Source: Streptomyces sp. NBC_00654
GTDB taxonomy: Bacteria; Actinomycetota; Actinomycetes; Streptomycetales; Streptomycetaceae
NCBI RefSeq assembly: GCF_026341775.1
Contig: NZ_JAPEOB010000002.1
Span: 2,108,001 to 2,172,000, forward strand
Direction of reading: 5' to 3'
Length of the DNA stretch: 64,000 bases
Part shown: piece by piece, positions 61,350-64,000 of the stretch
Layout of the letters: every line of letters starts with the position of its first letter
Numbering within the stretch: position 1 is the first letter of the stretch
Notes under the pieces: model-generated
The model's database searches: none
Told to the model about the DNA's origin: nothing
The model's input: only the letters and a program-made list of their open reading frames with translations
Translations under genes and position numbers: made by a program

Positions 61350-62759
61350 ATGTTCCAGAACGCCGACGAAGTGCAGAAGTACGTCGCGGACAACGACGTC
61401 AAGTTCATCGACGTCCGGTTCTGCGACCTGCCCGGGGTGATGCAGCACTTCACGATCCCGGCAGCGACCTTCGACCCGGCCGAGGAACTCGCCTTCGACG
61501 GTTCGTCGATCCGCGGCTTCCAGGCCATCCACGAGTCCGACATGGCGCTCCGCGCCGACCTGTCGACGGCTCGGGTGGACCCGTTCCGCCGCGACAAGAC
61601 GGTCAACATCAACTTCTTCATCCACGACCCGATCACCGGCGAGCAGTACAGCCGTGACCCGCGCAACGTGGCCAAGAAGGCGGAGGCGTACCTCACCTCC
61701 ACCGGCATCGCGGACACCGCGTACTTCGGTCCCGAGGCCGAGTTCTACGTCTTCGACAACGTCCGCTTCCAGACGTCGGCGAACGAGAGCTTCTACCACA
61801 TCGATTCCGAGGCGGGCGCCTGGAACACCGGTGCGACCGAGAACAACCGCGGCTACAAGGTCCGCTACAAGGGCGGCTACTTCCCGGTCCCGCCGGTCGA
61901 CCACTTCGCCGACCTGCGTGCCGAGATCTCCCTGGAGCTGGACAAGAACGGCCTCCAGGTCGAGCGCCAGCACCACGAGGTCGGCACCGCCGGCCAGGCC
62001 GAGATCAACTACAAGTTCAACACGCTGCTGGCCGCGGCCGACGACCTGATGCTCTTCAAGTACATCGTGAAGAACGTCGCCTGGCGCAACGGCAAGACCG
62101 CGACCTTCATGCCGAAGCCGATCTTCGGCGACAACGGCTCGGGCATGCACGTCCACCAGTCCCTGTGGGCCGGCGGCGACCCGCTGTTCTACGACGAGCA
62201 GGGCTACGCGGGCCTGTCGGACATGGCGCGCTACTACATCGGCGGCATCCTCAAGCACGCCCCGTCGCTGCTGGCCTTCACCAACCCGACGGTGAACTCG
62301 TACCACCGCCTGGTCCCCGGCTTCGAGGCCCCGGTCAACATGGTGTACTCGCAGCGCAACCGCTCCGCCGCGATGCGCATCCCGATCACGGGCTCGAACC
62401 CGAAGGCCAAGCGCGTCGAGTTCCGCGCCCCGGACCCGTCCTCGAACCCGTACCTGGCCTTCGCCGCGCTGCTGATGGCTGGCCTCGACGGTGTGAAGAA
62501 CAAGATCGAGCCGGCCGAGCCGATCGACAAGGACCTCTACGAGCTGGCTCCCGAGGAGCACGCCAACGTCCAGCAGGTCCCGACCTCGCTCCCGGCCGTG
62601 CTGGAAGCGCTGGAGGCCGACAACGAGTACCTCCAGGCCGGCGGTGTCTTCACGCCCGACCTGATCGAGACGTGGATCGACTACAAGCGCACGCACGAGA
62701 TCGCCCCGATCCAGCTGCGCCCGCACCCGCACGAGTTCGAGCTGTACTTCGACCTCTAA
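61350..62759 (+). CDS. glnA: glutamine synthetase type I
   Basis: 469 residues from ATG 61350, with AGGAGG 6 nt upstream. It forms glutamine from glutamate, ammonia and ATP and is the main ammonium-assimilating enzyme. GSI motifs: FDGSSIRGF, the metal-binding [35 protein letters not shown], and NRSAAMRIP. The adenylylation tyrosine is Y397 ([12 protein letters not shown]), so activity can be switched off by GlnE. Transcription is under GlnR (operator at 61215-61252). Confidence 0.97.
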
Positions 62760-62798
62760 AGCACGTCCCCGTCGGCCGGTGAGGCCGCCGGAGTCATC

Positions 62799-62843
62799 GC
62801 CCGAGGGCCGTCACCCGCTGTTCGGGGGTGACGGCCCTCGGGC
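62799..62843 (+). terminator. terminator after glnA
   Basis: Perfect 18-bp stem (62799-62816 / 62826-62843, 9-nt loop) 39 bp after the stop and just before the convergent pPIWI-RE-like gene. Confidence 0.85.
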
Positions 62844-62855
62844 GTCGGGGCTCCG

Positions 62856-64000
62856 CTACTCGTCGTCCGGCACCTGGGCCTTCAGCGGTGCGGTGGCCAG
62901 GGGCAGGACGTACTCGTTCGCCATCCGTGCCAGGTGCAGGGGCAGCGGGCGGGCCAGGGGCGGGTAGTCGTCGTGGAAGCGGAGCTGGTGCGCGAGGGTG
63001 GCCCATTCGGCGGGCCGGTCGGCCGGGCGGTCGGTCCTTCCGGCGTCGGCCAGGGCCTTCTCCGACAGGCAGCCGAGCACGGTCAGCTCCAGATGGACCG
63101 GATTCCACGCGCTCTTGCCGGGAGCCGTACGGCCCGCGGCGGTGGGGACCAGTTTCATCAGGCCCTTGGGCAGCGTCGCCGTGTGCGGTACGTCGGCCGT
63201 GCTGGCGAAGACGCGGTTCTCCGGGTCGGACGTGCCCCACACCCCCTTCGCGAAGCCCGCCCGGCCCACGCCGTCATGTGCGTACCACTCGGGGACCTCC
63301 TCACGGCCGTTGGCGTCCCGGGCGAGGACGACCCGCAGGTCGGGGCCGTACACCGCGAGCCGTTGGGCGTCGGACGCGCCGAAGCCCAGCATGTCCCGGG
63401 CCAGAGCTCCGTTACGGAGACGGGGCCAGCACTGACGCAGGTTTCCGCTGCTCGCCATCAGCAGGGTGGGGCGGTCGCGGAGCTGGTAGAGCAGTGCCCG
63501 GATCTGCCGTTCGGCCTCCTGCTGCCCGTCGCCGGTGACCGTTCCGCCCCGGGCGGGGGCGGGCGCGGTGACCGCGGCGTCCCGGGACAGGGCGAGAAGA
63601 AGGTCCGGGTAGGGCACCCAGGCCGCGCGTTCGGAGTCCCAGCCATGGATGCCGCCGGGGCCCTCGTCGGGGCGGACCCGTACGGCGACGAGACGGCGCG
63701 CGGGGCAGCGCGTGGGGCCCTTCCTCGTGTAGCGCACCAGCCACAGGGCGGCGTACTGCACGTCCTGCGGGATGCCCGGCCCCACCCGGTGCGCGGGAGG
63801 TGCGGTCGCCCCGAGCTGGCGGAAGGCGTCGAGCCACGCCGAGCGCGCCCGGTGCGGGAGTGTGTCTTCGGCGTCCCCGGGAAGACCGATGAACTGGCTG
63901 AGCCGCCCGCGGCCCGCGAAGCCGAGACGCAGCGCGTGCTTCGGATCGGAGTCGAGGGCCCGGAAGTGGTCCTTTCCCCCGAGCTCGATGATCGCCATCC
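62856..64000 (-). CDS. pPIWI-RE-like protein, C-terminal RNase H-fold part (5' end beyond window)
   Basis: At least 381 codons remain open to the window edge; an in-frame ATG at 63998 is probably internal. The visible part looks like the RNase H/PIWI-like domain of pPIWI-RE proteins: IIELGGKDHF, DPKHALRLGFAGRGRLSQFI, a central DRPTLLMASSGNLRQCWPRLRNG, an EVPEWYAHD segment, and KSAWNPVHLELTVLGC with the family's C-terminal hallmark HDDYPPLARPLPLHLARMANEYVLPLA. The RE name comes from conserved Arg and Glu residues. Full proteins are near 900 residues or more. pPIWI-RE was predicted to act with a helicase and nuclease in defence against plasmids or phages. Confidence 0.78.
   Translation of the reverse strand, partial: MAIIELGGKDHFRALDSDPKHALRLGFAGRGRLSQFIGLPGDAEDTLPHRARSAWLDAFRQLGATAPPAHRVGPGIPQDVQYAALWLVRYTRKGPTRCPARRLVAVRVRPDEGPGGIHGWDSERAAWVPYPDLLLALSRDAAVTAPAPARGGTVTGDGQQEAERQIRALLYQLRDRPTLLMASSGNLRQCWPRLRNGALARDMLGFGASDAQRLAVYGPDLRVVLARDANGREEVPEWYAHDGVGRAGFAKGVWGTSDPENRVFASTADVPHTATLPKGLMKLVPTAAGRTAPGKSAWNPVHLELTVLGCLSEKALADAGRTDRPADRPAEWATLAHQLRFHDDYPPLARPLPLHLARMANEYVLPLATAPLKAQVPDDE

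Follow-up and report, generated by a model that had tools for sequence, protein, structure and literature searches.

What does the gene that enters this DNA at its right edge encode, and what cuts, and what decides when, in the system to which it belongs? The window, which is the whole stretch of 64,000 nucleotides analyzed from Streptomyces sp. NBC_00654 (G000:C2:2108001-2172000), ends within an open reading frame (ORF) on the minus strand (62856-63998) that a preliminary description had assigned to pPIWI-RE, the PIWI component of a predicted three-part anti-invader system. The frame stays open across the window edge and, because it runs on to G000:C2:2173651, the ATG at 63998 codes for a Met inside the protein (residue 552) and does not mark its start. 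The full gene (G000:C2:2170856-2173651, minus strand) has its upper end at L002:5152, L002 being the host locus stretch, which covers a further 16.5 kb beyond the window (window coordinate = L002 + 60499). It starts with a GTG overlapping the helicase end and encodes 931 residues, and the window holds its 3′ part (62856-64000, about residues 552-931, the C-terminal 41%). We give about an even chance to the reading developed here, that the gene belongs to an island encoding a pPIWI-RE system of a subtype coupled to a kinase and an AfsR-like regulator, most likely anti-invader and working as proposed below.

The pPIWI-RE identity of the edge ORF was borne out by profile, domain order and hallmark residues. 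The partial protein matched RNaseH_pPIWI_RE (PF13032) with 250 bits against a cut-off of 25 (E 4.8e-74), MID_pPIWI_RE (PF18157; E 1.3e-20) and the PADLOC model PprPIWI (E 9e-140, profile positions 506-871 of 882). Extension past the window edge, as the preliminary description had suggested, added the N-terminal pPIWI_RE_X domain (PF13111), and the full protein carries the three family domains together (PF13111, E 1.2e-121; PF18157, 2.7e-26; PF13032, 2.8e-73). Within the window lie, on the minus strand, the C-terminal half of the MID domain (63789-64000; whole match residues 493-621) and the RNase H-like PIWI domain (62901-63755; residues 633-917), and the structural prediction agrees with an Argonaute/PIWI fold. 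A sequence search of the PDB with the PIWI profile gave no match. Among the matches listed in a protein database search (the best 120 of 196 at E <= 1e-5), the nearest proteins, at 94, 90 and 87% identity, are all named Streptomyces.

Conservation was scored across relatives. The host, 30 further stretches (together 31) and 80 named loci, which were the best 80 of 165, made 111 loci, and distant relatives are under-sampled because only these best 80 were taken. The named loci include Streptomyces, Actinacidiphila, Nocardiopsis, Kitasatospora, Amycolatopsis, Actinokineospora, Nonomuraea, Nocardia, Micromonospora and others. Dropping 12 sequence-repeating loci and five truncated, fragmentary or remnant ones (L059, L060, L061, L062, L140) left 94. 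In all 94 the D, K and R of the MID motif D-P-K-x-A-x-R (residues 569-575) are kept. The Arg and Glu of the R/E pair, which gives the family its name (PMC3702460), are R813 (63213-63215, minus strand; Arg in 91 of 94) and E855 (63087-63089, minus strand; Glu in 90 of 94). The motif peptides quoted in the preliminary description are all present in the translation, and that with WNP..LE bears E855.

The DinG-type helicase and REase (restriction endonuclease) genes that had been predicted do adjoin the PIWI gene, but the system is not three-part. Upstream of PIWI, all on the minus strand, are a DinG-type helicase with a Z domain (L002:5140-8679 = G000:C2:2173639-2177178; PprDinG E 2e-262), a Y-REase (L002:8672-9868 = G000:C2:2177171-2178367; PprRE E 4e-78) and a PD-(D/E)XK nuclease (L002:9805-11442 = G000:C2:2178304-2179941; PprPDDEXK E 1e-170), so that the first gene of the core operon is PD-(D/E)XK and not REase, while REase, DinG and PIWI follow in this order with touching or overlapping ends. 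A divergent Ser/Thr kinase (L002:11472-12389 = G000:C2:2179971-2180888, plus strand) and an AfsR-like regulator of 943 aa with winged helix-turn-helix, NB-ARC and TPR parts (L002:12447-15278 = G000:C2:2180946-2183777, minus strand) complete the conserved neighborhood; in minus-strand order the island reads AfsR-like regulator, opposed kinase, nuclease, Y-REase, helicase, PIWI. Profiles built from Streptomyces clusters place the four core genes on one strand and in the same order in every one of the 94 actinomycete loci that are neither duplicates nor truncated. The overlap filter of the gene map misses PD-(D/E)XK in L104 and the Y gene in several loci, where separate searches recover all four; the genes of L082 are in pieces and were counted by the longest pieces. 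Since all four host core proteins match the PADLOC-DB models PprPIWI, PprDinG, PprRE and PprPDDEXK, a public model set already covers this core of four genes. The AfsR-like protein matches only a TPR model there, and all matches of the kinase are to kinase models that belong to other systems (generic PD-T4-6/mad6).

Which of these proteins could cut? The first RNase H strand of the PIWI domain (VAVRVRP) has R658 (63678-63680, minus strand) where the catalytic Asp is expected, and Asp stands at no position of this strand in 94 of 94 loci. The second column is S734 in the host (MASSGN; 63450-63452, minus strand); Asp takes its place in 14 of 94 loci, of which 13 belong to the kinase+AfsR clade and 1 to the sister clade, and also in triads from Nostoc. 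These residues suggest that the PIWI protein of the kinase+AfsR clade is nuclease-dead; it probably binds a guide. In the Y-REase the catalytic residues are kept in none of the 29 kinase+AfsR loci versus 61 of 66 elsewhere, where D..DxK is intact (95 rows, L061 included); the three columns read S, R and Y in the host protein, which scores 25.3 bits against Pfam REase, just under the 26.1 cut-off. DinG has its GxGKST (Walker A), DExD (DEAD box), QxIGR (motif VI) and four Cys in 100% of 94 rows. The PD-(D/E)XK protein keeps D, (D/E)xK (as RExK) and Q as well as two Fe-S-type Cys sets (1+3 pattern), has a predicted RecB/Cas4 fold and reads as a tandem duplication with one dead half; such Cys sets bind Fe-S in relatives and presumably do so here. 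Judged by its motifs it appears to be the one nuclease of the core whose active site looks intact. A PDB sequence search with this protein returned two chance-level rows only.

These features place the locus among known systems. The three-gene pPIWI-RE system was predicted in 2013 by Burroughs, Iyer and Aravind, in whose model PIWI finds an RNA/DNA hybrid, DinG opens the hybrid and REase cuts (PMC3702460). The host locus shares with that system, as described in the part of the paper available, an X-MID-RNaseH PIWI protein with the R/E pair, DinG with a Z domain and Cys cluster, a Y-REase, and the order REase, DinG, PIWI with overlapping ends. It differs in having a duplicated PD-(D/E)XK gene first, a lost REase site, and a divergent kinase and AfsR-like regulator. 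That part of the 2013 text lists Streptomyces among the hosts of standalone genes and states that methylases are not associated with the system; the terms RecB and PDDEXK are absent from it, and "kinase" occurs in it only in the eukaryotic section or the references (PMC3702460). One family member, PsPIWI-RE of Pseudomonas stutzeri, was experimentally characterized in the literature found in a limited search. According to the available part of that account (Huang et al. 2022; PMC10991935), it has guided nuclease activity and cuts with D525 and D610, and its deletion increased ciprofloxacin sensitivity and changed cell division. The host protein belongs to the same family and likewise neighbors DinG, but where that enzyme has D525 and D610 it lacks Asp throughout the first strand and carries Ser at the second column, the columns being equated by strand position. 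A further paper, PMC7641849, concerns Piwi in general in the part available. The PD-(D/E)XK protein resembles AdnA and the Argonaute-associated Cas4 (ACE1; PDB 9iac, 9iab), and a PIWI-fold protein adjoining a Cas4-like nuclease parallels the Argonaute/ACE1 pair; unlike ACE1, the host protein reads as tandem-duplicated with one dead half and is linked to pPIWI-RE, DinG and Y-REase.

The regulator aligns to AfsR over residues 23 to 933 (E 4e-47; profile 4e-105), a full-length match that includes NB-ARC and TPR, as in S. coelicolor AfsR. Among seven AfsR-like members NB-ARC and TPR were found in all seven, Trans_reg_C in 4 of 7 and BTAD in 3 of 7, the last two being uncalled by Pfam in the host. 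We had considered the 943-aa protein a STAND (signal transduction ATPase with numerous domains) effector, a label that was dropped once the full-length match was found. Unlike S. coelicolor AfsR, the host regulator sits in a probable anti-invader island with a short kinase (305 aa; kinase domain 12-255). AfsK, the kinase partner of S. coelicolor AfsR (PDB 8k60, 8jke), phosphorylates AfsR, and the promoters that AfsR targets carry DNA repeats to which it binds. By analogy, the kinase and AfsR-like protein may form a switch of the core, a proposal that we consider evenly balanced.

To ask how such modules are distributed, we examined the region upstream of PIWI, counting AfsR-like proteins from 150 bits. 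Among the 111 loci, duplicates included, 46 have kinase+methyltransferase, 33 kinase+AfsR-like, 11 a set of three proteins (c8, c9, c12), 4 methyltransferase alone, 4 kinase alone and 13 none (four of them truncated, fragmentary or remnant); remnants aside, 9 quartets have no module detected. The modules follow descent, in that seven module labels need 9 changes on the DinG tree (97 rows), a number that none of 200 shufflings (mean 50.4) brought down so far. The host lies within a 29-row group of which 28 are kinase+AfsR, the 29th being the broken L082, one of the four "kinase alone" loci; support is 91 for this group and 100 for its 27 rows without L091 and L093. The deepest joins of the tree are unsure because of the quick method and long-branch warnings. 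The methyltransferase of the sister clade belongs to the N6 type (PF02384, E 9e-30) and also matches a type I-like profile, and the kinase there is longer. A methyltransferase profile match on either side of the core was found in 0 of 29 kinase+AfsR loci and 41 of 42 loci of the kinase+methyltransferase types within the fetched stretches, in 0 of 10 loci of type C, 4 of 4 of type D and 3 of 9 of type E. Two of the three remaining "kinase alone" loci (L113, L120) have a methyltransferase downstream. Defense systems that combine a kinase with an N6-methyltransferase include the methylation-associated defense system (MADS) and those of the phage growth limitation/bacteriophage exclusion (Pgl/BREX) type; here they are represented by PADLOC mad2/mad6 and MTase_I matches only. 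The sister subtype is like them in that its quartet comes with a kinase and an N6 methyltransferase resembling type I, and the kinase+AfsR subtype is unlike them in having no methyltransferase match within the fetched stretches. Because the sister clade joins the same core to a kinase and N6 methyltransferase, one core could be wired to epigenetic or to signaling control of self/non-self. The actinomycete loci examined share a core of four genes, and the control module to which this core is coupled differs from clade to clade.

Our best reading is that PIWI and DinG would direct a Cas4/AddB-like nuclease, with an AfsK/AfsR-like pair as the gate; defense activity, guide binding and regulation are all parts that we infer. 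The kinase and AfsR-like regulator would detect some internal condition and then activate the core operon, in the manner of an AfsK/AfsR pair, a step with even odds of being right. The nuclease-dead PIWI protein, with its Argonaute-like predicted fold and MID motif, would fairly probably hold a small guide or an invader RNA/DNA hybrid. DinG, whose ATPase motifs and four Cys are intact, would likely remodel that hybrid. The Y protein, having lost its REase site, could well serve as a scaffold or DNA-binding adaptor, which we hold to be reasonably likely. Cutting would fairly probably fall to the duplicated Fe-S PD-(D/E)XK protein, in its second half, where motif and predicted fold are in place. 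The complete picture, a PIWI-based immune machine that has lost both of its ancestral cutting sites (PIWI RNase H and Y-REase) and cuts with a duplicated Cas4/AddB-like Fe-S nuclease, with an NLR-like (NB-ARC/TPR) AfsR-type regulator and its kinase as the switch, is tentative and on balance doubtful. The locus turns what cuts and what decides when into questions of point mutations in the PD-(D/E)XK, kinase and NB-ARC sites.

Several observations weigh against this reading. The characterized PsPIWI-RE is tied, in the available part of its account, to ciprofloxacin sensitivity and cell division and not to defense (PMC10991935), and a limited literature search found no published phage or plasmid test of the kinase+AfsR subtype. 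The short kinase/nuclease intergenic region, inspected by eye, holds no clear direct repeats of the SARP (Streptomyces antibiotic regulatory protein) type, and the second RNase H column is still Asp in 13 of the 29 loci of the clade. REase loss is confined to one clade and its link to the AfsR module is thus one event, not a replicated correlation. Nor are REase and methylase a strict pair, because 16 type C and E loci (10 of 10 and 6 of 9) keep REase with no methyltransferase match in the stretch, the other 3 of type E having weak matches downstream; strict co-loss of the two, which we had considered, was not kept for this reason. The host itself carries at G000:C3:550719-552947 an unlinked homolog (46% identical) of the sister-island methyltransferase.

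Could the kinase and AfsR-like protein instead form a separate signaling or STAND-type defense unit that merely shares the island, with the quartet working alone? The generic PADLOC matches of the kinase and the 9 quartets lacking a module fit this explanation, as does the occurrence of NB-ARC/TPR proteins and kinases in many Streptomyces contexts. The pair, however, stays with one quartet clade (28 of 29 rows) whose members, judged by record titles, come from several actinomycete genera, the longest ORFs of the host kinase and nuclease begin only 29 bases apart, divergently, and all six island genes are under purifying selection in the four close pairs compared, and we consider a separate unit unlikely. 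The 2013 model as written, in which PIWI senses the hybrid, DinG unwinds it and the Y-REase cuts, agrees with the triads and with the other subtypes, where D..DxK is intact; given that the Y-REase and PIWI RNase H sites are both degenerate, it does not fit the kinase+AfsR clade unchanged, and for this island it is very improbable.

The ciprofloxacin and cell division phenotypes of the PsPIWI-RE deletion (PMC10991935), together with the action of DinG on R-loops as given in the available part of PMC3702460, would suit a housekeeping module for replication or R-loop repair. Against such a role the distribution is patchy: a match to the pPIWI-RE protein (query P0001, E <= 1e-20) occurs in 28 of the 199 genomes searched from the genus, host included, and a phylum-wide sample of 296 genomes yielded PF13032 in 5. 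Triads occur on Nostoc plasmids, and remnant and fragmentary copies exist (L060, L059, L082), which makes a housekeeping function rather improbable. Finally, the two degenerate nuclease sites, one remnant (L060) and one broken copy (L082) could mean that the island is decaying and on its way out, but the frames of the host island are all open, REase loss is common to the whole clade, and purifying selection acts in the four close pairs; the chance of decay is accordingly slight.

Where does the island sit? As described before, its PIWI gene is convergent with glnA (61350-62759, plus strand), a core gene outside the island that forms the left flank of the slot. Between the two stop codons is a perfect 18-bp inverted repeat with a 9-nt loop (62799-62843; arms 62799-62816 and 62826-62843), probably a terminator serving both genes. 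Similarity to the host ends at 62753-62767, around the glnA stop, in 27 of the 29 glnA loci of relatives; in the nearest relative it ends at 62845, just past the repeat, and one of the 29 contigs ends within glnA. It resumes at about L002:17686-18130 (G000:C2 from ~2186185) in 11 of 16 other genomes, at a right flank consisting of a 103-aa gene and a gene that by eye is ArsC-like; three of the other five resume farther on and two gave no match, one of them with only a 4.2 kb contig. In the 11 with both edges matched the slot measures 1.9 to 16.3 kb, compared with 15.4 kb in the host. The earlier suggestion of a neutral insertion site behind glnA thus stands in that the slot is variable among relatives, but glnA adjoins the island in only 2 of 31 loci (by ORF clusters), and in the listed relatives the slot is occupied by genes that look ordinary when named by eye. 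Streptomyces sp. CBMA291 (G184; same contig as L069) has a kinase+AfsR island in the same slot. No direct repeats of at least 12 bp join the two tested island ends, no mobile-element boundary was found at the island, and the glnA-downstream DNA of relatives has scattered matches elsewhere in the host genome and none at the slot.

Within the island a gene for a 253-aa protein, unassigned to a family by our scans (L002:15940-16701, plus strand), has relatives in 7 of 31 loci. ORFs at L002:12687-15461 (plus strand) and L002:15846-17186 (minus strand) were rejected as antisense shadows of the AfsR-like gene and the 253-aa gene. At 14530-15895 of L060 (G133:C32:10000-29999) a C-terminal PIWI scrap, covering residues 795-919 at 80% identity, adjoins a gene of the 253-aa type, apparently all that is left there of a kinase+AfsR island that was deleted; the same genome also holds the pPIWI-RE locus L053. 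L059 (G196:C1:2641300-2661299), from the genome that carries L057 as well, has its pPIWI-RE and DinG genes in fragments.

Other arrangements were seen among the relatives. In the c8/c9/c12 clade (type C; L044, L051-L054, L057, L129, L134, L136, L138) proteins of ~297, 372 and 503-564 aa replace the kinase or methyltransferase; one of each of c8, c9 and c12 was scanned and gave no Pfam or PADLOC match, and some of these loci have an AAA/helicase-like protein farther out. A fourth arrangement, with kinase and methyltransferase both opposite the core strand, occurs in L086, L087, L089, L090 and L056, and L090 has AfsR-like and 253-aa-type profile matches behind PIWI, a layout that gives the impression of two islands placed back to back. 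L088, L092 and L097 have no upstream module; downstream of PIWI they have weak methyltransferase matches (141-172 bits), and ORFs there resemble type I restriction-modification genes by eye. Phages were searched for relatives without a match. Triads lacking a nuclease profile match lie on two Nostoc plasmids (L180, L181; one typed conjugative) and one Streptomyces plasmid, and the REase gene of L180 carries a MerR family regulator annotation.
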